A stretch of 54,163 bases of DNA from a virus. Positions 1 through 49,430 of the stretch are shown in pieces. The notes beneath the pieces were generated by a model. It was not told the DNA's origin. It did not search any database and was given only the letters and a program-made list of their open reading frames with translations. The stretch is taken from IMG/VR virus record IMGVR_UViG_3300032223_000637, positions 1 to 54,163 of that record; one strand, 5' to 3'. The position numbers and the translations under genes are program-made. Every line of letters starts with the position of its first letter. The first letter of the stretch is position 1.

Positions 1-503
1 GGGCCATAGGGAACTTTGTTTGCTTCTACAAAATAATTTGCATAGAATGCCTTAGCCAACGGAATGTCATTTCCTATGATAGTTTTAAGATAAACATCCT
101 TGGCACGTTCTTGTCGCATTATAGAAGTGATCCTGCCCATATCTAACTGATTTATAGGAACATTGTCCATATCAGTCCAACCATCTAACCAAGGAGCATA
201 GTCGGTTTGCAGTGCGTGTATGAATTCGGTGCCCTCTCCTGCCCAGTCTGTAAACTTGCCAGCCATCTTAGGTGTAGCATTAACACGGCGAACAAAATCC
301 TCAGCGTCAATTTTAAGATGTTTTAGTAGTCCGATAAATGTAGAAGTTCCGCTTTCGCCTGCGATAATCGGAGGACGTTCAGGATCTTCAACTACAGTTA
401 CACTGAGAGTTGGCCAGTTTCTTTTTAAGAATAATGCAGTTAACCATCCTGCACTGCCTCCTCCGAGCACAACTGCTTTAGAATTTGTATTGAAGCGATT
501 CAT
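1..503 (-). CDS. Flavin-dependent (tryptophan-type) halogenase, N-terminal part
   Basis: The first 167 codons of a protein whose 3' end lies outside the window. It starts at ATG 503-501, and its first 26 bases overlap the end of the upstream halogenase gene. The N-terminus has the FAD-binding signature GGGSAGW, then an acidic ED pair ending the second Rossmann strand and an AGESGTST segment equivalent to the GVGEGST segment of its neighbours. A lysine in the following PKMAGKF segment aligns with the catalytic lysine (Lys79 of PrnA). Family knowledge: these enzymes use FADH2, O2 and halide to make HOCl/HOBr, which is relayed through that lysine to an aromatic or other electron-rich substrate. 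The substrate cannot be read from sequence. It is clearly diverged from the other two copies, so it is not an assembly repeat. Confidence 0.87.
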   Translation of the reverse strand, partial: MNRFNTNSKAVVLGGGSAGWLTALFLKRNWPTLSVTVVEDPERPPIIAGESGTSTFIGLLKHLKIDAEDFVRRVNATPKMAGKFTDWAGEGTEFIHALQTDYAPWLDGWTDMDNVPINQLDMGRITSIMRQERAKDVYLKTIIGNDIPLAKAFYANYFVEANKVPYG

Positions 504-1983
504 ATCTTTCCTTGATTTTTTCTAGACATACACGATGAGGCCAAGTTTCTACATTGTCGGTATACTGAGTATTTTCTCTCATTATCTCATTGTTGATTTC
601 GATGTACTTGTGCATCTGGCTTTCATATTTTTCTTTGATTTTTTCTGTGTTAAACATACGAAGCCCGTGCATTACCTGAGTATAACTTAGCTGGGTAAAC
701 AACTGCATTGGATGATTAAAATAATGCGGATGCGGCATATGATTCTTAAAGTAGTCTAGATAATCTTTATTGAAATCAGTGATAGCCATTTCGTTTTTAC
801 ACCAGCGCCAAAACTCTGTATCACTGCGTTCTGTGAAATAGTGCAGCTGAATAAAGTCGACAATATTCTTGGCAACAACACTCATATCTTGATTGTATTT
901 CTTCGGAGCGATGTCTGATCCTTTTTCATAAAAGAATATCGCAGGCAACAGCATAAATGACTGCTGTATTGTTGTGCCTATGCTGCTGGCCTCTAATGGC
1001 TCGACGAATATTCCGCTGAGTCCTATGCTGACACAGTTCTTAATCCAAAATTCTTCAACATATCCCGCACCAAATTTTACTCTACGACCAATCTTAAGCT
1101 CGTCAGTGATGCCTAGATTATTAGCATAATGCTGTGATACTTCATCGTAGGCTTTGGTTTCATCTATGAAACTATCACAGAATACATAACCATTACCAAA
1201 TCTTTCCTGTGTGGGAATGCGCCACACCCATCCGCTGCTTAATGCAGTTGATTCTGTGTAACTTGGAATTTCTTCTTTGTATCCTGTAGGAAAAGCCAAT
1301 GCTGAATTCATTGGCAGTTGGTTAGTACAGTCGATCCACTTGGCTCCTAGTTTAGAAGCAATCACTCTGCGGAAGCCACTACAGTCAACAAAGAAATCAT
1401 AACTGTGTGTTGTGTTGTCTTTGTCTAGCAACTCTTTGACATAGCCTTGCTCGTCTAGAATTACATCGTTGATTTCTGTATCTACAATATTGATGTTACG
1501 TTCTTTACAGAGTCTATGTAGGTAGTCGTTTAACTTGAATGTGTCAAAATGATACTGCGCAAATATTTCGTGCAGCGGCTCTGGATGTCTGCTGAGTTTA
1601 CTCCATTTAAAACAAGTATCTAAAGGATCGTAGTTGTTGGCAACCATATGGATCCAAGTAAAAGGCAAGCCGTTTTCTTTGCTGTGTCCACCAAATGTTT
1701 CCATCAGGCTGTGGAAATAGTGTGTGCCGTCGCCGTGCCAATCTGTAAACTTAATGCCCATCTTAAACGTAGCACCTGTTTCTCTAACAAGATCAGTAAC
1801 GTTAACGTCAATGTGTTGGATAAATTTACGCCAGTGTTCTGTAGATCCTTCACCTACACCAATAATACCTAGTTGGCTAGACTCGATCATTGTAATTTTA
1901 AGATCAGGATAGGCTTTGCGCATCATAAGAGCAACAACACAACCGCTGGTGCCACCGCCTAAAATACATAATGAATCTATCAT
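478..1983 (-). CDS. Flavin-dependent (tryptophan-type) halogenase, copy 2
   Basis: A complete 501-residue protein of normal family length. Visible motifs are the FAD-binding GGGTSG at residues 9-14, GVGEGST at 42-48, the presumed catalytic lysine K74 in TFKMGIKF, the halogenase signature WVWRIP near 251, and FVEPLE at 326-331, whose glutamate E331 corresponds to PrnA Glu346. All expected catalytic positions are therefore present and the enzyme should be active if a flavin reductase supplies FADH2; none is seen in the window. Its ATG overlaps the stop of the upstream halogenase as ATGA (1980-1983), so translation is coupled. Related viral halogenases occur in cyanophages, and one (VirX1 of phage Syn10) is known as a broad iodinase/halogenase. 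The substrate here is unknown. Confidence 0.93.
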   Translation of the reverse strand: MIDSLCILGGGTSGCVVALMMRKAYPDLKITMIESSQLGIIGVGEGSTEHWRKFIQHIDVNVTDLVRETGATFKMGIKFTDWHGDGTHYFHSLMETFGGHSKENGLPFTWIHMVANNYDPLDTCFKWSKLSRHPEPLHEIFAQYHFDTFKLNDYLHRLCKERNINIVDTEINDVILDEQGYVKELLDKDNTTHSYDFFVDCSGFRRVIASKLGAKWIDCTNQLPMNSALAFPTGYKEEIPSYTESTALSSGWVWRIPTQERFGNGYVFCDSFIDETKAYDEVSQHYANNLGITDELKIGRRVKFGAGYVEEFWIKNCVSIGLSGIFVEPLEASSIGTTIQQSFMLLPAIFFYEKGSDIAPKKYNQDMSVVAKNIVDFIQLHYFTERSDTEFWRWCKNEMAITDFNKDYLDYFKNHMPHPHYFNHPMQLFTQLSYTQVMHGLRMFNTEKIKEKYESQMHKYIEINNEIMRENTQYTDNVETWPHRVCLEKIKERYESLQYKF

Positions 1984-3467
1984 AGTTTATAAACCTTATC
2001 TGAATAACGCTCTTTGACAATATTTACAGCTTCTCTACTGGTGTAGAATTTTGTGTCTTTTTCCGACGGCACTGTTGAGTAATGATATCTCACAGCTTCT
2101 ATGAAATGATGAAAGTGCGTATCATATTGCTGTTTGATTTTTTCTACATCGAACATTCTAAGTCCGTGCATTACCTGCACCCAATTTAAAATATCGTAGA
2201 TACAATAGTTTGTAGTAGGCAGTGCCAATTGATTGATAAAATTAGTTTTAAAGATTTCTAAATGTTCAGCATTGAAATCTGTCATTTTTAAATTGTTTTT
2301 ACACCAACGCCAAAATTCTGTGTCATTGCGTTCTGTGAAATAATGCAGTTGTATAAAATCTAAGATGTTGGTCATAACTTCGTCGAAAATCTTATTGTAA
2401 TGTTTTTCTGTTACAGTATCGTTGCGCTGCCAGGTCGACAGTGCACCAGCTAAAACTCGTGACTGTTGTACTGTTGTTGATATGCTGCTGGCTTCTAATG
2501 GTTCTACAAAACTGCTACTCAGCCCAACACTGACACAGTTCTTAACCCAAAACTTATCGACCTTTCCGGAAACAAAGTTGACCTTACGTGCGATTTTAAT
2601 GGGATCGGCAAACTCTTTTTGTATTTCAGCGATAGCCTGATCTTCGGAAATAAATCGATCACTGAAAACATAGCCGTTGCCAAATCTATCCTGTACAGGA
2701 CTGCGCCAATGCCATCCGCTGCTCAATGCTTTGGCTAGGGTGTATGGCGGAATTTCTTCTTGATAAGGACTAGGAAATGCGATAGCTGAATTCATTGGCA
2801 GATACTCTGACCAATCTACCCAAGTAGTTCCTAGCTTAGAAGCGATCACTCTGCGGAATCCACTGCTGTCTATGAAAAAATCAGCAGCATATTTGTTATT
2901 GTCAGTGTCAACAATAGACTCTACAAAGCCTTCTTGATCCAAAACAGCATCTACGATTTCAGCTTCAATGACTTCTATGTCACGTTCGCTGCATTTACCT
3001 AAGAAAAACGCATTTAGTTTTTCGCTGTCAAAATGGAATTGATAAAAATTATCAGCCAGCGGTTCTGCGTGTAGCCCACGCATCGCTAGATCCCAATGCA
3101 TCTTACTGTTGTCAATGCCGTCACGGATCATAGACATCATCGTGTAAGGACAGCCAGTGTAGGGATCTTGCACAGCCATATATTCCGGTAAACTGTGGAA
3201 GTAGTGTGTACCATCACCGTGCCAGTTTTCGAACTTAATGCCGCCTTTGAGTGTGGCGCCACACTCTTTGATGATTTCCCAATTGGCGATTCCTGTAGCC
3301 TTGGCAAACAAATCCCAGTGTTCTGTAGAGCCTTCGCCGACGCCGATGGTTCCTATCTTAGTTGATTTAACAACTGTGATTTTTAAATTAGGCAATGATG
3401 CTCGAAGATATAGCGCAGTCATTAGTCCTGCATTGCCGCCACCAAGCACAGTTAGTGTTTTAATCAT
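1980..3467 (-). CDS. Flavin-dependent (tryptophan-type) halogenase, copy 3
   Basis: A complete 495-residue protein and the nearest relative of the adjacent copy: long collinear blocks are shared, including GVGEGSTEHW, the HGDGTHYFHSL segment and the HYFTERNDTEFWRWCKN segment. It has GGGNAG at residues 9-14, K74 equivalent to the catalytic lysine, and FVEPLE ending at E325 (the PrnA Glu346 position). The WxWxIP signature reads WHWRSP, so the isoleucine is replaced by serine, a mild deviation that may affect restriction of the flavin monooxygenase side reaction. The start ATG overlaps the stop of the preceding oxygenase gene as ATGA. The pair probably arose by tandem duplication followed by divergence in substrate pocket regions. 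Confidence 0.93.
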   Translation of the reverse strand: MIKTLTVLGGGNAGLMTALYLRASLPNLKITVVKSTKIGTIGVGEGSTEHWDLFAKATGIANWEIIKECGATLKGGIKFENWHGDGTHYFHSLPEYMAVQDPYTGCPYTMMSMIRDGIDNSKMHWDLAMRGLHAEPLADNFYQFHFDSEKLNAFFLGKCSERDIEVIEAEIVDAVLDQEGFVESIVDTDNNKYAADFFIDSSGFRRVIASKLGTTWVDWSEYLPMNSAIAFPSPYQEEIPPYTLAKALSSGWHWRSPVQDRFGNGYVFSDRFISEDQAIAEIQKEFADPIKIARKVNFVSGKVDKFWVKNCVSVGLSSSFVEPLEASSISTTVQQSRVLAGALSTWQRNDTVTEKHYNKIFDEVMTNILDFIQLHYFTERNDTEFWRWCKNNLKMTDFNAEHLEIFKTNFINQLALPTTNYCIYDILNWVQVMHGLRMFDVEKIKQQYDTHFHHFIEAVRYHYSTVPSEKDTKFYTSREAVNIVKERYSDKVYKL

Positions 3468-4072
3468 AGGTCTACTTGTATAGTTGCTTTAGAGTCAGTG
3501 GCTAGATTGTGATTAACTTTACCTGTAGGGAATGTATTGAAACTAATGATAAATCTATCAAGCTGACCAAAGTGTGTAGGACTGCTGTGGAACAACCAAC
3601 TTGGAAATATAATTAATTTTCCTGGTACAGCATCTGAAGTAATTGAAGAATTATAGTCGTGTCGCAGTACTTCTAGTTGAGCAAACGCTCGCTGTGTTAC
3701 TGGATCTTCAAACAAGGTAGGTGCACCGTCAGTGGCATAGTATACTCCGCTGTACATACTCATAGAATGTCTATGATAGTTCTGATACATTGACTCTTTG
3801 CCTATGGCTACATTGAACCAACTGTTGATAATCTCAATTTTATCACAGTCGTATTTCATTGTTACACGGATTTCTTCCAGACATTCGCGGAACCAATCAA
3901 ACAATGGTTCAAAGTCTGGATCTTTATGTAGGTCTGCTAGTACACTGATGTTGGTGTTTTTCTTTACAGGCGCAGTGGTCATACGCTCTAGCTTACCAAC
4001 TAGTTCGTAGTTGTCTATGTTAGGATTGTTGAATACAAAAACTTCAACAGGAAAAAGATTTAGTATTTCCAT
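3464..4072 (-). CDS. 2OG-Fe(II) oxygenase, phage PF13759-like family
   Basis: A 202-residue protein with the layout of small phage 2-oxoglutarate/Fe(II) oxygenases. H100 and H102 lie in YHRHS, followed by the SGVYY strand, then FPSWLFH with distal H162, and R173 in DRFIISFN as the likely 2OG carboxylate ligand. These enzymes hydroxylate or oxidise a substrate using O2 and 2OG; the substrate here is unknown. Its ATG overlaps the TAA of the upstream oxygenase (TAATG at 4070-4074) and its stop overlaps the downstream halogenase start, so it sits inside one polycistronic unit with the halogenases. The metal ligand assignment is by pattern only. Confidence 0.82.
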   Translation of the reverse strand: MEILNLFPVEVFVFNNPNIDNYELVGKLERMTTAPVKKNTNISVLADLHKDPDFEPLFDWFRECLEEIRVTMKYDCDKIEIINSWFNVAIGKESMYQNYHRHSMSMYSGVYYATDGAPTLFEDPVTQRAFAQLEVLRHDYNSSITSDAVPGKLIIFPSWLFHSSPTHFGQLDRFIISFNTFPTGKVNHNLATDSKATIQVDL

Positions 4073-4650
4073 TAATACTCAACCCAACCTGTTAACAGAT
4101 ATTTTTCACCGCTCAGTGGAGGATTGCCACGATGTGTGTGCGTGAATCCTGCAGGCCAAATTGTCAGTGTGCCTTTGGTTGCAGGTACACGTAGGTTCTG
4201 GTAGAGCCATTCTGTTTCTCCACCTTGCTCTACAGTATTAAGATAGACGCCCCAGGCACAGATGCGAGCAGATCGCTCAATTGCATCTGATTCAAAATGC
4301 CATTGATGATATCCTTCGCCGGGCATTGTTTTTTGTATCTTCATTGATCGTATAGTATGCTTGCCTGCTTCTTGTAGAACGCTGTAATGTTCAAGATATT
4401 CAGACCAGCAATGCCAAAATCTATCCATAAAGAAACCTAGAAATCCTGCTCCCGGACCAAACCGCAGAGATTTTTCATCTAAAACGTAAACACCTTTGTC
4501 ACTTTTATAATGTGCAAGGCCGTCTTTGATTGCTTGTCTTGTGTAACTGAGTTGTAATTGATCTAGTCTATTGAAATGATCAATAATCTGCTGGCACTCG
4601 TTGTCTGTAAGAATGCCGTCCCAGATGCCAATATCTTTTTCTAGTTTCAT
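4072..4650 (-). CDS. 2OG-Fe(II) oxygenase, prolyl-4-hydroxylase-like with HxE motif
   Basis: A 192-residue protein starting at ATG 4650-4648. An upstream in-frame ATG at 4701 is possible but adds a poor 17-residue extension. The double-stranded beta-helix core is recognisable: WHFE (H118, E120), VYLNTVEQGGETEWL, then IWPAGFTHTHRGNPP with distal His at 171 or 173, and K183 in GEKYLLTGW as the probable 2OG anchor. The facial triad is therefore H-x-E rather than the usual H-x-D, as in other marine T4-like phage homologues I recall. It is the first gene of the minus-strand oxygenase/halogenase operon. No convincing TAAATA box lies upstream; the AT-rich segment 4660-4700 may hold a promoter. Confidence 0.85.
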   Translation of the reverse strand: MKLEKDIGIWDGILTDNECQQIIDHFNRLDQLQLSYTRQAIKDGLAHYKSDKGVYVLDEKSLRFGPGAGFLGFFMDRFWHCWSEYLEHYSVLQEAGKHTIRSMKIQKTMPGEGYHQWHFESDAIERSARICAWGVYLNTVEQGGETEWLYQNLRVPATKGTLTIWPAGFTHTHRGNPPLSGEKYLLTGWVEY

Positions 4651-4725: not shown

Positions 4726-5319
4726 ATGAACTCTGAAAAAACACTTTGGCCTTTGTTCTCTAAACCAATTTTTAAAACACCTGTTGATGTTTCGGGGTTA
4801 GATCTCAGCAGCGTAGAATGGCTTCCAAATTACAATAATTGGATCAGCAAATCACAGAACATTCTAGAGCAACCTGGATTTGAAAAACTGTCACAGGTAG
4901 TGTTTGACGGAGTCTGTGAATATTTCTATGGTATAATGCAGGCCAGTGAAAAAGTTGAACTAGCGATCACAGAGTCCTGGTTAAACAAAACAGAAAAAGG
5001 ACAGATACACCATAGACATTATCATCCTAACAGCATTTTTTCTGCGATAGTATACCTTGAATCTGAAGGTGAAACAGGGCAAACTAAATTTATTACCAGC
5101 GAATATCAAACCATAGAATACGATATCAACGATTCAAATCTCTACAATTCCAAGAGTTGGAGTATCGCACCTAAGGTTGGAGATATGTTGGTATTTCCTT
5201 CTAGCGTTGAGCATATGGTTACAGAATATCAAGGTAACACTCCACGCATCACACTGAGCTTCAATACATTTTTACGTGGTCAAATCAACTCAATGCCGCT
5301 GACAAGGCTGAGTATTTAA
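4726..5319 (+). CDS. 2OG-Fe(II) oxygenase, phage PF13759-like family
   Basis: A 197-residue protein transcribed away from the halogenase operon. It contains HHRHYHPNS (residues 95-103) with iron-ligand histidines, then SAIVYLES, a DMLVFPSSVEH segment with H163, and R174 in PRITLSFNTF. The pattern matches the 3464-4072 protein (both end in R-x-x-x-SFNTF), so the two are distant paralogues that flank the P4H-like gene. There is no strong Shine-Dalgarno sequence before the ATG. Its 3' end overlaps the convergent gene at 5316 by four bases. The substrate is unknown; position suggests it works with the oxygenase/halogenase set. Confidence 0.82.
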   Translation: MNSEKTLWPLFSKPIFKTPVDVSGLDLSSVEWLPNYNNWISKSQNILEQPGFEKLSQVVFDGVCEYFYGIMQASEKVELAITESWLNKTEKGQIHHRHYHPNSIFSAIVYLESEGETGQTKFITSEYQTIEYDINDSNLYNSKSWSIAPKVGDMLVFPSSVEHMVTEYQGNTPRITLSFNTFLRGQINSMPLTRLSI

Positions 5320-6146
5320 ATTTTAGACTTGGGATACTTGTTTCTAAAGTATTCAAACAGCTGAGTAATTACACGTATTTTATTTCCCACTGAGTCACTT
5401 CTAGGAAATCTGCTGTGATTTGAGAAGGTATAGGCTTCTTCTATTTCTTTTTCAACGTCACCTGCAACATCTACGATAAAATCAACACCACCTTGCTCTA
5501 CAAGTTTACGGCTGATAGGCACATATTGCACTAATGGTGTTCCTGCACGTATCAGGGTCTCGCCCTCAAGTACGTGCCAAAACAATTGGATACTAACAGA
5601 GTGCATATACTTAGGGTCAACGATTCCGATAGCTGCTGTAAATCTAGCTTCGTTGTCGTAGCTCACAGGAATCTGCAATAACAAGATATCATCGCTGGCT
5701 TTGATGCGCCACGGAGTTTCTACTTTAACCGCACTGTGTAGAGTAGGGCGATCTGTGTTGGGAATTTCTTTAGGAATCAAGGGTTCTGTCTGCGCAGGGC
5801 TGTGCCAGCTAACGTAGTAATCTGTGCCGCCAAAGGTATATTTGTCACTGTGACGCTTGAACATAAACGGAGTTTCCCAGTTTAAGTGCTGTACTTCTGG
5901 GCCCGTTTTGATCACGAAATCTGCAGGCGCTCGCATCACAAAACCAGACCTAACCAGTTGTTTGATCGCTGGGCAATTTAATACTACTTGCTTGCCCTGT
6001 TCGGGTCTATTTCGATCTGTTGTTGCTAGACTGTTCCAGTCGCGTTCTACGAGCTTTGACTGTGTTACAGGGTAAACAAGGGCAACGTTCTGATCTAAAC
6101 AATAGAACCTAACCCAGCTTTTTTTCTTTTTAAATAGATTAAACAT
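5316..6146 (-). CDS. Conserved hypothetical protein
   Basis: A 276-residue soluble protein with no signal peptide or membrane segment. The N-terminus is basic (FKKKKSW). It has a central beta-rich region containing PWRIK and FWHVLEGETLIRAGTPLVQYVP, a jelly-roll-like strand pattern, and an acidic C-terminal helix. The family resembles uncharacterised proteins of T4-like cyanophages; I cannot assign a function. A TAAATA late box sits exactly five bases upstream of its ATG on the minus strand (6152-6157), so it should be expressed with structural genes. It could be a virion-associated or capping protein, but that is a guess. Confidence 0.75.
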   Translation of the reverse strand: MFNLFKKKKSWVRFYCLDQNVALVYPVTQSKLVERDWNSLATTDRNRPEQGKQVVLNCPAIKQLVRSGFVMRAPADFVIKTGPEVQHLNWETPFMFKRHSDKYTFGGTDYYVSWHSPAQTEPLIPKEIPNTDRPTLHSAVKVETPWRIKASDDILLLQIPVSYDNEARFTAAIGIVDPKYMHSVSIQLFWHVLEGETLIRAGTPLVQYVPISRKLVEQGGVDFIVDVAGDVEKEIEEAYTFSNHSRFPRSDSVGNKIRVITQLFEYFRNKYPKSKI

Positions 6147-6235: not shown

Positions 6236-6958
6236 ATGTCTAACTTTAACAGTATCAGATTACTACCAAATTATGATCACACAACTTTAACACGTAAAGT
6301 TGCAGCCAAGGGCGAAGTGTTTTATGACCCAGATACCGTATCTTTGCGAGTATTTGACGGTGCGGTTTCTGGAGGGTACACTCTTTTAAGAGCTGACCTA
6401 AACAACGTATCTGGAACACTACCTGCGGCAAATCTAGCAGGAAATATTCCCAACAGCAAACTAGCTAACCCTACGATAACACTGGGAACTACAGCGGCTT
6501 CACTAGGTGCAACAGTTACTGATATCGCTGGATTGAATTCTATCGCAGCTACAACATTCACTGGTAATTTGTCAGGTACTGCTTCAAGTGTAACCAACGG
6601 TGTTTATACTACAGGCCCACAGACTATCGGTGGTGCTAAAACATTTAGTACGACTATCGTAGGTAATATCAGCGGCAATGCTGGCACAGCATCAAAGCTT
6701 CAAACATCGATAACCATCAACAATCAACCGTTTGATGGATCGACCAGTGTCATTATACCAGCAGATGCAATGATGCTAACTAATGATACTATCGCAGCAA
6801 ATGTTATTCACTCAAGCCTACAAGATGTAGGTACATTGACAAGTTTATCAGTAGCGGGAGCAATAACTGTTCCAACTACCCCAGTTGCTAAAACAGATGC
6901 AACAAACAAAAATTATGTAGACATTAGAGCAGTGGCAATGTCAGTAGCACTAAGTTAA
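6236..6958 (+). CDS. Tail fibre-like virion protein
   Basis: A 240-residue Thr/Ser/Ala/Gly-rich protein of low charge, typical of fibrous phage structural proteins. Near residues 150-180 it has a GNAGTASKLQT...ITINNQPFDGS segment, a repeat unit common in long phage tail fibres, and it ends with TDATNKNYVD, a motif that in fibres precedes trimeric coiled or knob regions. It is preceded by a late box and AGGACGAGGA, and followed 21 bases later by the giant structural gene. It could be a short fibre or a fibre-attachment subunit. Assignment as a fibre is by repeat style, not by a full-length homologue. Confidence 0.7.
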   Translation: MSNFNSIRLLPNYDHTTLTRKVAAKGEVFYDPDTVSLRVFDGAVSGGYTLLRADLNNVSGTLPAANLAGNIPNSKLANPTITLGTTAASLGATVTDIAGLNSIAATTFTGNLSGTASSVTNGVYTTGPQTIGGAKTFSTTIVGNISGNAGTASKLQTSITINNQPFDGSTSVIIPADAMMLTNDTIAANVIHSSLQDVGTLTSLSVAGAITVPTTPVAKTDATNKNYVDIRAVAMSVALS

Positions 6959-26413: not shown

Positions 26414-28000
26414 ATGGCAAAAAGTTTAGACGGCGTATTAATTAAGAAAGCTCATAAGCAAGATCGTTATACTCTTGAAGAAGTAAAACATCTTGAAGCG
26501 TGTATGGATCCAGTTACTGGACCATTATACTTTATGACGCACTTCTTGAAAATTCAGCACCCTGTGCGCGGTGCTATCGATTTCAAACCTTACGAATATC
26601 AGGTAAGACTTATCGAAGCATATCATAATCACAAAGATGTGATCGCTATGTTACCTAGACAGATGGGTAAAACTACCTGTGCCTGCGGATACTTATTATG
26701 GTTTACAATGTTTGTACCTGAAGCACAGGTGCTGATTGCTGCTCACAAGTATGAAGGTGCGCAGGACATTATGAATCGCTATCGCTATGGTTATGAAAAC
26801 CTACCCGACTTCATTCGTGCAGGTGTTATCAGCTATAACAGAAATACAATCGAATACGACAATGGAGCACGTATTCAAGCAACAACAACTACAGAAAATA
26901 CCGGTCGTGGTAAGTCTTTATCACTGATTTACTGTGATGAGTTTGCGTTCGTTCAGCCTCCAGAAAAAGCCAAAGAGTTTTGGACTGCGTTATCGCCAAC
27001 ATTGTCAACAGGTGGTCGTGCTATTATTACATCAACACCGAACTCAGACGAAGATCAGTTCGCTATGATTTGGACTGAAGCCAACAAAAAGTTTGATGAG
27101 TTTGGCAACGAGCAAGAGCTAGGTGTTAACGGATTCTTCCCTTATTTTGCTACTTGGGATGAACACCCAGATCGAGACGATGCTTGGGCAGCGGTTGAAC
27201 GTGCTAAGATTGGTGAGGAACGTTTCCGCCGTGAATTTGATTGTGAATTCTTGATCTTTGATGAAACGTTAATCAACGCAGTAAAACTAGCAGAACTCAA
27301 GGGTAATGATCCTGTAATGACAATGGGACAAACACGTTGGTACAAAGACGTCGATCCTAGAGCAACATACCTCGTATCATTAGATCCCAGCCTAGGTACA
27401 GGTGGCGACTACGGTGCTATACAGGTCTACGAAATGCCTAGTATGATACAGGTAGCAGAGTGGCATCATAATCTAACTCCTGTGCAGAATCAAGTCAAGC
27501 ATATGAGAGAGATCCTAAAGTACATACAAGAACGATCTGCAGAAAAAGGTGGCAGTCCGCAAATATATTACAGTGTTGAAAATAATAATATTGGTGAAGC
27601 CGCGTTGATTGTTATCAGCGATATTGGTGAAGAAAACTTTCCAGGACTGTTCTTAAGTGAACCTATACGCAAAGGACACGTTCGTAAGTTCCGTAAAGGA
27701 TTTAACACTACACACCGTACAAAAGTAGCTACTTGTAGCCAACTTAAGAATCTACTAGAAACCAACAAAATGAAGATCAATTCCAAAGCATTGATTTCTG
27801 AACTAAAAACATTCGTTGCTAGCGGGCTTGGATTCAAAGCCAAAAGCGGTGAGCACGATGACCTAGTAAGCTCTACACTGCTGATCATACGTATGGCGGA
27901 TGTACTAGCAGACTGGGATCCTAAGATCTACGAAAAAATGACTGAAAAAATCACAGAGGAACAGATGCCTCTACCAATCTTTATTAGCACAGGGTTTTGA
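26414..28000 (+). CDS. 17: Terminase large subunit (gp17)
   Basis: A 528-residue packaging motor and nuclease. Walker A PRQMGKTT (residues 81-88), Walker B LIYCDEF near 175 and the C-motif region TSTPNS make up the ATPase. The RNase H-like nuclease has SLDPSLGTGGDYGAI, SVENNNIGEAALI and HDDLVSSTLLI, corresponding to T4 gp17 D401, E458 and D542. It is shorter than T4 gp17 (610 residues), mostly by a shorter N-terminus. It pumps DNA into the prohead through the portal. It is preceded by a terminator and late box, and its TGA overlaps the next late box. Confidence 0.96.
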   Translation: MAKSLDGVLIKKAHKQDRYTLEEVKHLEACMDPVTGPLYFMTHFLKIQHPVRGAIDFKPYEYQVRLIEAYHNHKDVIAMLPRQMGKTTCACGYLLWFTMFVPEAQVLIAAHKYEGAQDIMNRYRYGYENLPDFIRAGVISYNRNTIEYDNGARIQATTTTENTGRGKSLSLIYCDEFAFVQPPEKAKEFWTALSPTLSTGGRAIITSTPNSDEDQFAMIWTEANKKFDEFGNEQELGVNGFFPYFATWDEHPDRDDAWAAVERAKIGEERFRREFDCEFLIFDETLINAVKLAELKGNDPVMTMGQTRWYKDVDPRATYLVSLDPSLGTGGDYGAIQVYEMPSMIQVAEWHHNLTPVQNQVKHMREILKYIQERSAEKGGSPQIYYSVENNNIGEAALIVISDIGEENFPGLFLSEPIRKGHVRKFRKGFNTTHRTKVATCSQLKNLLETNKMKINSKALISELKTFVASGLGFKAKSGEHDDLVSSTLLIIRMADVLADWDPKIYEKMTEKITEEQMPLPIFISTGF

Positions 28001-33579: not shown

Positions 33580-33593
33580 TCTTGGGAGAGCTT

Positions 33594-34208
33594 ATGAAAG
33601 AACCAAGATTAACTAGAGTATTTTTTGATAGTATATGGCAAGGGCCTCCGGGGTTCTACGTTGAAATCGGTGCGTGGGATGGTCGAAGAAAGAACAGTAC
33701 CATTTTGCTTGAGAAGGCAGGATGGGATGGTGTTTGTATCGAAGCATCTCCTGTAAGCTACCAACAATTAATCAAAAATAGAAAATGCCGCTGTCTTAAT
33801 GTAGCGGTATATGATCGCGACGGCGAAGTAGATTTTGCTGTATTTCCAGATAGACCAGAATGGAATGGCATCATCGAAACCTACGATGCACTGCATATGG
33901 AACTCTTTGAAAGCGATGAGCCTAGGAGAGGATCTCGTTCGTCTGATGCTACTGAACTAATCAAAGTTCCCTGCAAGTCGTGGAATAGTTTAGAGCTCCC
34001 GTCACATATTGATTATCTTCAAATTGACGTTGAAGGCGCCGAATTAGCAATACTTCAATGTATCGATTGGTCAACTACAACTATAAAATATATCTGTCTA
34101 GAAGATAACAATAGACACAAAGGTTTTACAGATTATCAAGATTTTATGGAAAGCATCGGCTATCACGCAATCGCTAGTCAACACGTGGATTGGTTATATA
34201 CAAAATGA
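33594..34208 (+). CDS. FkbM-family SAM-dependent methyltransferase
   Basis: A 204-residue protein from ATG 33594, which has GGGAG five bases upstream. YVEIGAWDG (residues 22-30) is the SAM-binding loop, STILLEKAGWDGVCIEASPVSYQQLIKNR gives the second strand and acidic ribose ligand, and IDYLQIDVEGAELAIL is the hallmark FkbM motif IDVEG-x-E. Family members O-methylate sugars in glycan and natural product pathways. It is the first gene of the glycan island, so it probably methylates a phage- or host-surface glycan. Its stop overlaps the next ATG (ATGA). Confidence 0.85.
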   Translation: MKEPRLTRVFFDSIWQGPPGFYVEIGAWDGRRKNSTILLEKAGWDGVCIEASPVSYQQLIKNRKCRCLNVAVYDRDGEVDFAVFPDRPEWNGIIETYDALHMELFESDEPRRGSRSSDATELIKVPCKSWNSLELPSHIDYLQIDVEGAELAILQCIDWSTTTIKYICLEDNNRHKGFTDYQDFMESIGYHAIASQHVDWLYTK

Positions 34209-34966
34209 AAAAGATCGTACTCATCACAGGCGGATTTGATCCTATACACTCAGGACACATTTCCTATATCAAAGAAGCAAAATCACTAGGTGATATTCTA
34301 GTCGTAGGCATCAACAGCGATGCTTGGCTAGAACGTAAAAAAGGTCGGGCGTTTATGCCTTATCGTGAACGATCGGCAGTGATTCATAATATTATAGGAG
34401 TTGACTTTGTTATCGATTTCGACGACAGCGATGGCTCCGCAAAACACGCAATCGAAATGGTTCGTAAAAGTTATCCTACAGATCAAATCATTTTTGCCAA
34501 CGGCGGGGATCGCACACATTTAGATATTCCGGAAATGGATATCAAAGATGATAATTTAATCTTTGCATTTGGTGTCGGTGGCTTTGACAAACAAAATTCC
34601 AGTCGTTGGATTTTACAAGAATGGAAAGCACCTAAGACAGAAAGACCTTGGGGATACTATCGTGTACTTCACGAAGTACCTGGTATGAAAGTCAAAGAAC
34701 TAACAATTAATCCAGGACAAAAGCTCAGTATGCAACGACATCAATTTCGTGCAGAATACTGGATTGTCAGTGAAGGTCGTGCTAATGTTAACAGTATAAT
34801 GCCTGGTGGTTATTCATTACCAACGACTGAATTAGCAAAGCACGAGGAATACAAAGTACCAGTTAACGAATGGCATCAACTGTGCAACACCAGCGATGAA
34901 CCGGTTAAGATTGTAGAAATACAATACGGAGAACAGTGTATAGAAGAGGATATCGAACGCAAATGA
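34205..34966 (+). CDS. Fusion: cytidylyltransferase-like domain plus mannose-6-phosphate isomerase type II cupin
   Basis: A 253-residue protein from ATG 34205. Residues 1-135 form a nucleotidyltransferase of the TagD/RfaE C-terminal type: GGFDPIHSGH at 9-18 carries the HxGH motif, and the ISSTxxR-like end is replaced by an NSSRWI segment. Residues 145-253 form a cupin: ERPWGYYRVL, the QRHQFRAEYW metal motif (177-186), and a VPVNEWHQLCN segment as in the sugar isomerase domain of mannose-1-phosphate guanylyltransferases. Inferred role: activation and isomerisation of a sugar for the adjacent transferases. The combination in one small protein is uncommon. Overlaps on both sides are ATGA. Confidence 0.8.
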   Translation: MKKIVLITGGFDPIHSGHISYIKEAKSLGDILVVGINSDAWLERKKGRAFMPYRERSAVIHNIIGVDFVIDFDDSDGSAKHAIEMVRKSYPTDQIIFANGGDRTHLDIPEMDIKDDNLIFAFGVGGFDKQNSSRWILQEWKAPKTERPWGYYRVLHEVPGMKVKELTINPGQKLSMQRHQFRAEYWIVSEGRANVNSIMPGGYSLPTTELAKHEEYKVPVNEWHQLCNTSDEPVKIVEIQYGEQCIEEDIERK

Positions 34967-35646
34967 TACCAGTGTTTATTGGCTACGATCCTAGAGAAGC
35001 TATAGCTTTCCACGTCTGTGTCAATAGTATTATTAGACACGCAAGTCAACCTGTGCAGATTATTCCTGTGGCATTAAATCTTTTTAAAGATTACACAGAA
35101 TCACACAATGACGGAAGTAATACTTTTATATACAGTAGATTTTTAGTTCCGTATTTGATGCATTGGCAGGACTGGGCGATCTTCATCGACGGTGATATGA
35201 TTGTTCGAGACGACATCGTAAAACTTTGGGAACTAAGAGAACTAGACAAAGATGTAATGGTTGTCAAACACGATTATAAGACTAAGATGAAAACAAAATA
35301 TCTTGGTTCAAAGAATGAAGACTATCCAAGAAAGAACTGGTCTAGTGTTATACTTTGGAATTGCAGTAGCTTTCCTAATAGAAAACTCACTCCGGAGTTT
35401 GTACAAAATTCACCAGGATCTGTGCTACATAGATTCAGTTGGATCGACGATAGTCGCATCGGAGAACTTCCGAAAGAGTGGAATTGGTTGCCAGACGAGT
35501 ATGGTCCTAATCCAGATGCCAAGCTGCTACACTATACACTAGGCACACCTAGTTTCCACGAGTTTGCTACAACGCCAATGGGTGACGAATGGCATAGAGA
35601 GCGAATTTTTACCGAATACTGCCAGCAAAATGATCTTCCTAAGTAA
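34963..35646 (+). CDS. GT-A fold glycosyltransferase
   Basis: A 227-residue protein from ATG 34963. MIPVFIGYDPREAIAFHVCVNSI is the usual start of small GT8-like enzymes, and D76-G-D78 in FIDGDM is the metal/nucleotide-sugar binding DxD. The C-terminal LLHYTLGTPSFHEF carries the His expected for metal coordination in this family. It transfers a sugar from a nucleotide-sugar donor; the acceptor is unknown. It overlaps its neighbours at both ends and shares its fold with the 37316 and 38127 genes. Confidence 0.82.
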   Translation: MIPVFIGYDPREAIAFHVCVNSIIRHASQPVQIIPVALNLFKDYTESHNDGSNTFIYSRFLVPYLMHWQDWAIFIDGDMIVRDDIVKLWELRELDKDVMVVKHDYKTKMKTKYLGSKNEDYPRKNWSSVILWNCSSFPNRKLTPEFVQNSPGSVLHRFSWIDDSRIGELPKEWNWLPDEYGPNPDAKLLHYTLGTPSFHEFATTPMGDEWHRERIFTEYCQQNDLPK

Positions 35647-47863: not shown

Positions 47864-47964
47864 TTAAAAAACTTCTAGCATTAATTAAAAATTATAGAGA
47901 GGAAAGGGCTTTTAAAAAGAAGCTGGCAGAAATGCGTAAACGTGACCCTTTCATTTACAAATGA
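47860..47964 (+). CDS. 34-residue conserved basic protein
   Basis: A short gene, ATG 47860 to TGA 47964, overlapping the primase stop (ATGA) and the carbamoyltransferase start (ATGA). It encodes MIKKLLALIKNYREERAF followed by KKKLAEMRKRDPFIYK. The ending RKRDPFIYK is, as I recall, a hallmark of tiny proteins in T4-like cyanophages. It is amphipathic with 13 Lys/Arg. Perfect packing between two genes supports its reality. Its role is unknown; it may bind nucleic acid or membrane. Confidence 0.7.
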   Translation: MIKKLLALIKNYREERAFKKKLAEMRKRDPFIYK

Positions 47965-49430
47965 TTACCTGGGGCGTATCAGCAGGAGCCCATAATGCTG
48001 CCCTTGCCGTATTCAAAGACGATGAGTTGGTATTTGCCAGTTCGTCAGAAAGATTTAGTAAAATTAAAAATGATCCAGACCTGTGTCACGAACTAGTTAA
48101 TCACGCAATTAACTTACACGGTCGACCAAATGAAGTATGCTGGTATGAGCGTCCGGTAAAAAAAGCCTTTAGAAAACTATTTGCAAAACAAGGTTGGCAA
48201 TTAGAAAATCTAAAAATGTATATGAATAGGTTTGCTGTAACTGCACCTATTAAAACCTGCGATCATCATCTCAGTCACGCTGCTGGCGGTTTCTACACAA
48301 GTCCATTTGAAGAAGCCTGCGTATTAGTAATTGATGCCATTGGTGAATTTAAAACCTGCAGTATATGGTCAGCTAGAAAGGATAAACTGACCTACATCTC
48401 TGGGTTAGATTATCCAACTAGTGCTGGATTGTTTTATTCAGCAATGACACAACGAGTAGGTCTTAAACCTATTGAAGAAGAATATATCCTTATGGGTATG
48501 GCAGCATATGGCAATGCTAATCGTTTATCTAGGGATATGCTGACAGATTTTATCTCATTCCCAAATGACGATTATCAAAATCCTTTTCGTCTTAAACAAA
48601 ATCTCCATAGGGGATGTGACTGGTGGCGGCCTGAATTGAATACGCAACAAGACTTTTACGATATTGCCGCTGCCACCCAATCTATCTACGAGATGATGTT
48701 TGAAAGAACTTTATATAAAGCAATGGATTCTGTTGGCAGTGAAAATCTAGTGTTAATGGGAGGGTGTGCATTAAACTGTGCTGCCAACTCAATAGCCTAC
48801 AAGTATTTCAAGAACGTATGGATTATGCCGGCACCAGGAGATGATGGTTCGGCTATCGGTGCGGTATTAGCACACAAAAAGAAGCATATCAATTGGACTG
48901 GTCCTTATCTAGGCTATGACATAAAGCCAACAGCAACTAACGAAGAAATTGTCGAGTATCTATTAGAAAATAAGATCTGCGGAGTTGCACGTGGCCCTGC
49001 AGAGTTTGGTCCACGAGCCTTAGGTAATCGTAGTTTGTTGGCGGATCCTAGAGATTTGACTATAAAGAAAGAAGTCAACAAAATAAAACAACGCCAACAG
49101 TTTAGACCATTTGCTCCGGCAGTGTTAGAAGAGTTTGCCAATGATCATTTTGATATGCCAACTAACTCAACCCCATATATGCAATATGCTGTGAAGTGTA
49201 AAACACCTAAAACATATCCAGCTATTGTACACGAAGACGGGACCAGTAGAGTTCAGACAGTGCCCGATGATGGATCACCTTTTAGAATGTTGTTAGAAGA
49301 ATGGTATCAGAAATCTGGTTCTCCTATGTTGTTGAATACCAGCCTTAACATCAAAGGACAACCTATGGTAAATGATGCTGCTGATTCTCGCAATTTTGAA
49401 AGCCTATATGGTGTTAAAGTGTTTAACTAG
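47961..49430 (+). CDS. NodU/CmcH-family carbamoyltransferase
   Basis: A 489-residue protein. The N-terminal ASKHA-type domain begins ITWGVSAGAHNAALAVF and has TCDHHLSHAAGGFYTSPFEEACVLVIDAIGE (metal-binding His residues). The YrdC-like C-terminal part has GGCALNCAANS, PGDDGSAIGAVLAH, the signature ARGPAEFGPRALGNRSLLADPR, and ends NTSLNIKGQP. These enzymes transfer carbamoyl from carbamoyl phosphate via carbamoyl-AMP to hydroxyl groups of sugars or antibiotics. Similar genes are known in cyanophages. Its location between primase and helicase is not with the glycan island, so a DNA- or nucleotide-directed substrate is also possible. Confidence 0.88.
   Translation: MITWGVSAGAHNAALAVFKDDELVFASSSERFSKIKNDPDLCHELVNHAINLHGRPNEVCWYERPVKKAFRKLFAKQGWQLENLKMYMNRFAVTAPIKTCDHHLSHAAGGFYTSPFEEACVLVIDAIGEFKTCSIWSARKDKLTYISGLDYPTSAGLFYSAMTQRVGLKPIEEEYILMGMAAYGNANRLSRDMLTDFISFPNDDYQNPFRLKQNLHRGCDWWRPELNTQQDFYDIAAATQSIYEMMFERTLYKAMDSVGSENLVLMGGCALNCAANSIAYKYFKNVWIMPAPGDDGSAIGAVLAHKKKHINWTGPYLGYDIKPTATNEEIVEYLLENKICGVARGPAEFGPRALGNRSLLADPRDLTIKKEVNKIKQRQQFRPFAPAVLEEFANDHFDMPTNSTPYMQYAVKCKTPKTYPAIVHEDGTSRVQTVPDDGSPFRMLLEEWYQKSGSPMLLNTSLNIKGQPMVNDAADSRNFESLYGVKVFN

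Follow-up and report, generated by a model that had tools for sequence, protein, structure and literature searches.

The stretch analysed here, hereafter the window, comprises the 54,163 nucleotides of the IMG/VR virus record IMGVR_UViG_3300032223_000637, and opens with a cluster of flavin-dependent halogenases and 2-oxoglutarate (2OG)-Fe(II) oxygenases that lies near a giant fibre-like gene (Table 1). Five minus-strand genes of this cluster had been picked out in a preliminary description made from the sequence alone, and their order, strand and overlaps (26 bases between halogenases 1 and 2, ATGA twice and TAATG once) were confirmed, as were their families by Pfam (PF04820 three times, PF13759 and PF13640). 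A third, divergent oxygenase on the opposite strand and the neighbouring F5 gene were missing from that description. All three oxygenases carry 2OG Pfam domains above cut-off and conserved His-containing motifs. The F13 oxygenase, which is counted here from its ATG (the open reading frame (ORF) caller begins at GTG 4701), is kept in five loci.

Table 1. Features of the window, with the basis of each assignment.
Feature	Position	Strand	Basis or remark
Halogenase 1 (hal1, clade C), N-terminal 167 amino acids (aa)	3..503	-	Runs off the window; PF04820 E 1.4e-19
Halogenase 2 (hal2, clade B), 501 aa	478..1983	-	PF04820 E 1.7e-103, full length
Halogenase 3 (hal3, clade A), 495 aa	1980..3467	-	PF04820 E 3.9e-101, full length
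2OG-Fe(II) oxygenase, 2OG-FeII_Oxy_5 / TIGR02466 type	3464..4072	-	PF13759 E 1.7e-12; phrog_81
2OG-Fe(II) oxygenase, 2OG-FeII_Oxy_3 type (family F13)	4072..4650	-	PF13640 E 8.4e-08; phrog_61
Third 2OG-Fe(II) oxygenase, divergent	4726..5319	+	PF13759 E 9.1e-23; TIGR02466 above cut-off
F5, phrog_7084, weak dUTPase-like predicted fold	5316..6146	-	Second copy by the first halogenase block, L068:8671-9474
F21, small Thr-rich tail-fibre protein	6236..6958	+	Tail-fibre PHROGs E 4.5e-07; family also in L101
F20, giant Thr/Gly-rich fibre-like protein, 2024 aa	6980..13054	+	Size, composition and synteny with L101 (2280 aa)
Tail sheath, 1131 aa	18341-21736		Closest to jumbo phages
TerL	26414-28000		54% identical to the PA5oct group of Pseudomonas jumbo phages
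FkbM methyltransferase, cytidylyltransferase + mannose-6-phosphate-isomerase-like fusion, glycosyltransferase family 8	33582-35646		Small sugar-type set
NodU/Nol-like carbamoyltransferase	47961-49430		Carbam_trans N and C domains; kind also present in halogenase-carrying cyanophages

The halogenases are diverged from one another, with 49% identity between hal2 and hal3 and 27% between hal1 and hal2. As the preliminary description had indicated, their catalytic residues are retained: the Lys corresponding to K79 of PrnA and the Glu corresponding to E346 are found in all three, the Glu of hal1 on an adjoining contig described below, and both are conserved across the respective clades. The WxWxIP motif is matched by hal2 (GWVWRIP), while hal3 has GWHWRSP (WxWxSP) and hal1 GWSWNIN (WxWxIN), each form being typical of its clade. 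Matches of hal3 in the PDB include 9luq, Thal, PrnA, RebH and VirX1. A flavin reductase had been reported missing from the window, and a search with PF01613 likewise found none there or in 10 relatives (up to 278 kb), whereas 13 of 14 control genomes were positive.

The cluster could be followed past position 1 through the contig IMGVR_UViG_3300032223_000621 (L068, also L100), the terminal 123 bases of which are identical to the first 123 of the window. Positions L068:2-1180 complete hal1 (remainder PF04820 E 3.5e-65) and contain its Glu motif, IEPLEANG, so that the catalytic residues are not lost in the part of hal1 outside the window. The completed product of about 519 aa is in line with clade C (514-524 aa). 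The 123-base overlap places the contig in the phage of the window or in one very closely related to it, without proving that the two form one genome.

Beyond hal1, the opposite strand of the contig carries 11 oxygenase-like genes, a paralogue of F5, two further halogenases, F9 and three glycine-rich proteins of family F2, and another giant fibre gene, F14, is present there with its end. Five of the 11 oxygenase-like genes exceed a 2OG or JmjC Pfam cut-off and two belong to DUF6445; the remaining four have only weak matches or conserved motifs of the HxD...H type. Together with the three oxygenases of the window, this brings the predicted set to 14 oxygenase-like genes, accompanied by five halogenases.

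Conservation of the cassette and its linkage to tail-fibre genes

A scan of viral contigs with hal3 recovered 59 loci. Among these, 31 related virus records, often incomplete contigs (up to 278 kb), were counted and hold one to five halogenases each, most of them four or five, in two facing blocks. The catalytic Lys and Glu are kept in halogenase clades A-E. Pairwise ratios of nonsynonymous to synonymous substitution rates (dN/dS) were about 0.03-0.16 where dS was unsaturated, with 0.06 for hal3 and 0.05 for the third oxygenase; some pairs were saturated, such as hal2 and its counterpart in L106, which share 81% aa identity. All testable cassette copies are thus under strong purifying selection, and because the cluster is conserved over about 59 loci with low dN/dS, it is more than a chance assembly.

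In the halogenase tree, clade A (support 0.994), clade C (0.999), the A+B group (0.928) and the D/E group with VirX1 (0.988) were recovered. The halogenases of the window sit in clades A, B and C and not with VirX1; the D/E copies on L100 and its relatives are the ones that group with that enzyme. The relatives of the window have an orthologue of VirX1 that shares 53% identity with it over the full length. Halogenating activity with FADH2 and halide is known only for VirX1, which corresponds to another copy of the cassette than the three in the window.

The small protein F9, which has no detected relation to the halogenase or oxygenase families, served as an independent anchor for the linkage. 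When viral contigs were scanned with it, 80 loci were recovered, of which 76 have a halogenase and 77 have F2; all seven contigs that depart from this are cut off at that point. In every F9 contig that does not end there the gene order is the same: glycine-rich tail-fibre adhesins, F9, halogenase, then oxygenases. Since some of the loci come from related samples, the 80 are not all independent of one another. In annotated phages, F9 and F2 (20 and 9 records, respectively) are confined to carriers of the halogenase or cassette. The small ORFs F10 and F17 were considered as peptide precursors and showed no sign of this on inspection by eye.

The F2 proteins contain 21-28% Gly and a Gly_rich_2 domain (PF21722). 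Neither F9 nor F2 has a homologue among PDB sequences, and F2 was placed by fold alone: its model, with a predicted local distance difference test (pLDDT) score of 77, gave as the best Foldseek match in the PDB the Pam3 cyanophage fibre 7ypx (E 8.5e-9, template modelling (TM) score 0.49-0.56), and the best match among viral models was syn9 Gp38. Pam3 gp24 recognises its receptor through a glycine-rich domain (PMC9608196). From fold and gene position, F2 is predicted to be a glycine-rich adhesin of the Pam3 gp24 type that may bind the receptor. Seven CBM_5/12 carbohydrate-binding repeats occur in one relative's giant fibre F14 (L102:9652-17535). In the window itself, F20 is proposed either as a substrate of the cassette enzymes or as a neighbour.

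A corresponding arrangement occurs in cyanophages. In S-RIM44, Syn10, P-TIM40, P-RSM6, S-CREM1, S-SZBM1, S-WAM1, Sf-FR1 and Sf-CH11, a VirX1-type halogenase adjoins tail-fibre or fibre-assembly genes and is followed by oxygenases; S-B64 departs from this arrangement. The neighbour in S-CREM1 is a collagen-like F2 gene, and in Sf-CH11 two oxygenases separate the halogenase from a large structural gene. The second cassette halogenase of Syn10 is VirX1 itself (100% to 6qgm). Loci L106 and L104 are collinear with Syn10 and S-CREM1 over F2, F9, halogenase, F5, F10, F1a, F6, F1b, F7, F3a, F4a, F3b and F8, with F11 as the exception. Most of these cassette genes are 38-64% identical between the two sides, with a few weaker pairs down to about 29%, whereas the core genes are less similar (TerL 32-35%, UvsX 29-31%, Ad2 barely detectable). 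The greater similarity of the cassette could mean that the block has been exchanged horizontally or that it is held under unusually strong constraint.

Several of these genes appear to be misannotated. In L099, L109, L112, L117 and L120, cassette genes that match oxygenase families are labelled DNA endonuclease V or ferrochelatase in GenBank, and are probably misnamed. Separately, the Actinomycetia phage DSL-LC01 (L111) has a distant halogenase with collagen-like genes and a glycosyltransferase in its vicinity, and may be a further example of linkage to fibres.

The TerL and tail sheath of the window are closest to those of PA5oct-like and other jumbo phages, so that the window represents part of a jumbo-like phage from a lineage not yet cultured. 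The gene psbA, which would have marked its relatives as cyanophages, was not found in the 15 records searched. Linkage of the cassette to fibre genes is conserved in two phage lineages.

For F5, a host or cellular version was sought among prokaryote genomes and two matches were obtained, in a Nonlabens assembly contig and in a short Prochlorococcus single-cell contig. The former (L113, NZ_RMVE01000006.1) belongs to the assembly of Nonlabens xiamenensis and is 188 kb long; over the 19 kb compared it shares 98.2% identity with the cyanophage P-TIM40, and on this similarity is likely to be a phage contig inside a bacterial genome record. The structural model of F5 is weak (pLDDT 66), with dUTPase-like matches.

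Possible substrates of the cassette enzymes

In the reading that we favour, at about even odds, the cassette enzymes would add hydroxyl groups and halogens to fibre and adhesin proteins of the phage itself before these are assembled. Under this proposal, two convergent operons would each be headed by a giant tail-fibre gene and would each carry halogenases and 2OG oxygenases of their own, with the genes of the window making up one half. Late in infection, the oxygenases would hydroxylate side chains of the fibre and adhesin proteins, and the flavin halogenases, fed with reduced flavin by the host, would halogenate aromatic residues of the same proteins. The outcome could be a tuning of receptor binding or of fibre stability.

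Both kinds of enzyme have relatives that modify proteins. The JmjC_2 group, to which the cassette oxygenase F7 belongs, includes ribosomal oxygenases, which hydroxylate ribosomal proteins. QhpG, a flavoprotein of the PF04820 type, acts on peptidyl Trp (PMC7876137). These relationships support a protein substrate. Moreover, when the virion proteome of S-SZBM1 (PMC9146016) is set against its gene map, the directly upstream fibre genes 51-54 are represented in the particle and the cassette enzymes 42-50 are not, as would be expected of maturation enzymes. The dedicated oxidative tailoring set suggested by the preliminary description is upheld and is much larger than described, at about five halogenases and about 14 oxygenase-like genes; the metabolite or nucleobase offered there as substrate is not favoured by the gene neighbourhoods, which point instead to the phage's own fibres and adhesins.

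Several observations count against modification of the fibres. Linkage alone is no proof of substrate, and T4-like phages have insertion hotspots in their structural regions. The T4 late promoter TATAAATA is not enriched in the window (two found against four expected), and the Trp content of F20 is low (0.7%). F5 was rejected as a specific partner or substrate, as it also adjoins fibres in relatives without halogenases, and some phage halogenases lie away from fibres (the third copy of S-RIM44, and those of S-B64, CP21 and S-SCSM2R). Furthermore, VirX1 takes small aromatics in vitro (PMC8407142).

The last point would also suit an explanation that we regard as unlikely, namely that the cassette makes or decorates a halogenated small molecule or a capsular sugar. 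This is the reading given to the S-SSM6a cluster by Iyer et al. (2021), by whom a 10-gene cluster of a jumbo cyanophage with halogenase, 2OG-Fe(II) dioxygenase (2OGFeDO) and carbamoyltransferase genes was interpreted as serving metabolite or capsule synthesis (PMC7824862), and the window likewise has a carbamoyltransferase and a small set of sugar-type genes. However, that carbamoyltransferase is 44 kb distant, the invariant neighbours are adhesins, and within the cassette (fibres, F9, F5, F10, halogenases and oxygenases) no scaffold-building enzyme or recognisable precursor was found. It is also rather improbable that the fibres are hydroxylated only, with some or all of the flavin copies acting as peptidyl monooxygenases of the QhpG/LodB type. 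Weak NCBIfam matches to QhpG, LodB and GoxB, and the departure of clades A and C from WxWxIP, would agree with such activity, but the halogenase catalytic Lys and Glu are retained and the proven halogenase VirX1 falls in the D/E clade.

Hitchhiking in the structural region, in which accessory metabolic genes would occupy an insertion hotspot and be functionally unlinked to the fibres, has a similarly small probability in our estimation. Cyanophage accessory genes are kept in hot-spot regions (PMC3037559), and the distribution of F5 and of the halogenases found elsewhere is in keeping with it; yet the same gene order and the same adhesin family recur in two lineages, and among isolates F2 and F9 occur only alongside the halogenase. 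Modification or repair of nucleic acids and control of host 2OG have been proposed for cyanophage 2OG oxygenases (PMC3037559; PMC2984593), but are very improbable as roles for this cassette, which is without a nucleotide-hypermodification gene and contains a JmjC_2 member suggestive of a protein substrate; moreover, 14 different oxygenases and five halogenases would be an odd design for lowering 2OG.

Relation to known systems and implications

Paired halogenases and numerous 2OG oxygenases have already been published in cyanophages (PMC3037559; PMC2984593), and the statement in the preliminary description that single halogenases are known from these phages needs correcting, as Syn9 was published with two (PMC3037559) and S-RIM44 has three. 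VirX1 (Syn10; PDB 6QGM) resembles the orthologue in the window's relatives in gene position and clade, whereas the three copies of the window form separate, deep paralogue clades, A-C, beside another fibre. The prnA/2OG arrays of Syn9, P-TIM40, P-RSM6, S-RIM44 and S-CREM1 likewise combine a single or tandem halogenase with a run of oxygenases, a tail fibre and glycine-rich adhesins, but have one or two halogenases in place of about five, one fibre set in place of two facing sets, and cyanobacterial hosts, whereas psbA was not found in 15 relatives of the window. In the S-SSM6a cluster, which also comes from a jumbo cyanophage, a halogenase similarly stands with several hydroxylases of the 2OG and cupin kinds; this cluster differs in its carbamoyltransferases and HemK-like methylase and in having been read as a route to secondary metabolites (Iyer et al., 2021). 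Among polyglycine fibre adhesins (Pam3 gp24; S16/T2 gp38), F2 shares its predicted fold and glycine-rich domain with Pam3 gp24. The known members have hypervariable tips, whereas F2 travels with modifying enzymes and is invariant at many His, Asn, Arg and Tyr residues.

The enzymes described here belong to known families, and what seems new is the fibre-linked cassette with about five halogenases. No paper connecting a halogenase with tail fibres was found in the open-access literature searched, although such absence is not proof of novelty. The substrates of phage halogenases, including VirX1, and of cyanophage 2OG oxygenases have been guessed at for 15 years, with antibiotic protection, DNA repair, nitrogen sensing and secondary metabolites among the suggestions. 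The conserved placement beside glycine-rich adhesins and giant fibres supplies a single, definite hypothesis, for which phages already in culture would serve as test material.

In its broadest form, the hypothesis is that a widespread family of aquatic T4-like and jumbo-like phages has a pathway dedicated to virion maturation, with as many as five halogenases and some 14 oxygenases placing hydroxyl groups and halogens on receptor-binding fibres; this is a tentative and somewhat doubtful extension. If true, virion maturation would be the native role of VirX1-type halogenases, and a virus that enzymatically halogenates its own particle would be a first. Post-translational chemistry would then form a layer of phage host recognition, and these phages would offer a source of protein-halogenating enzymes.

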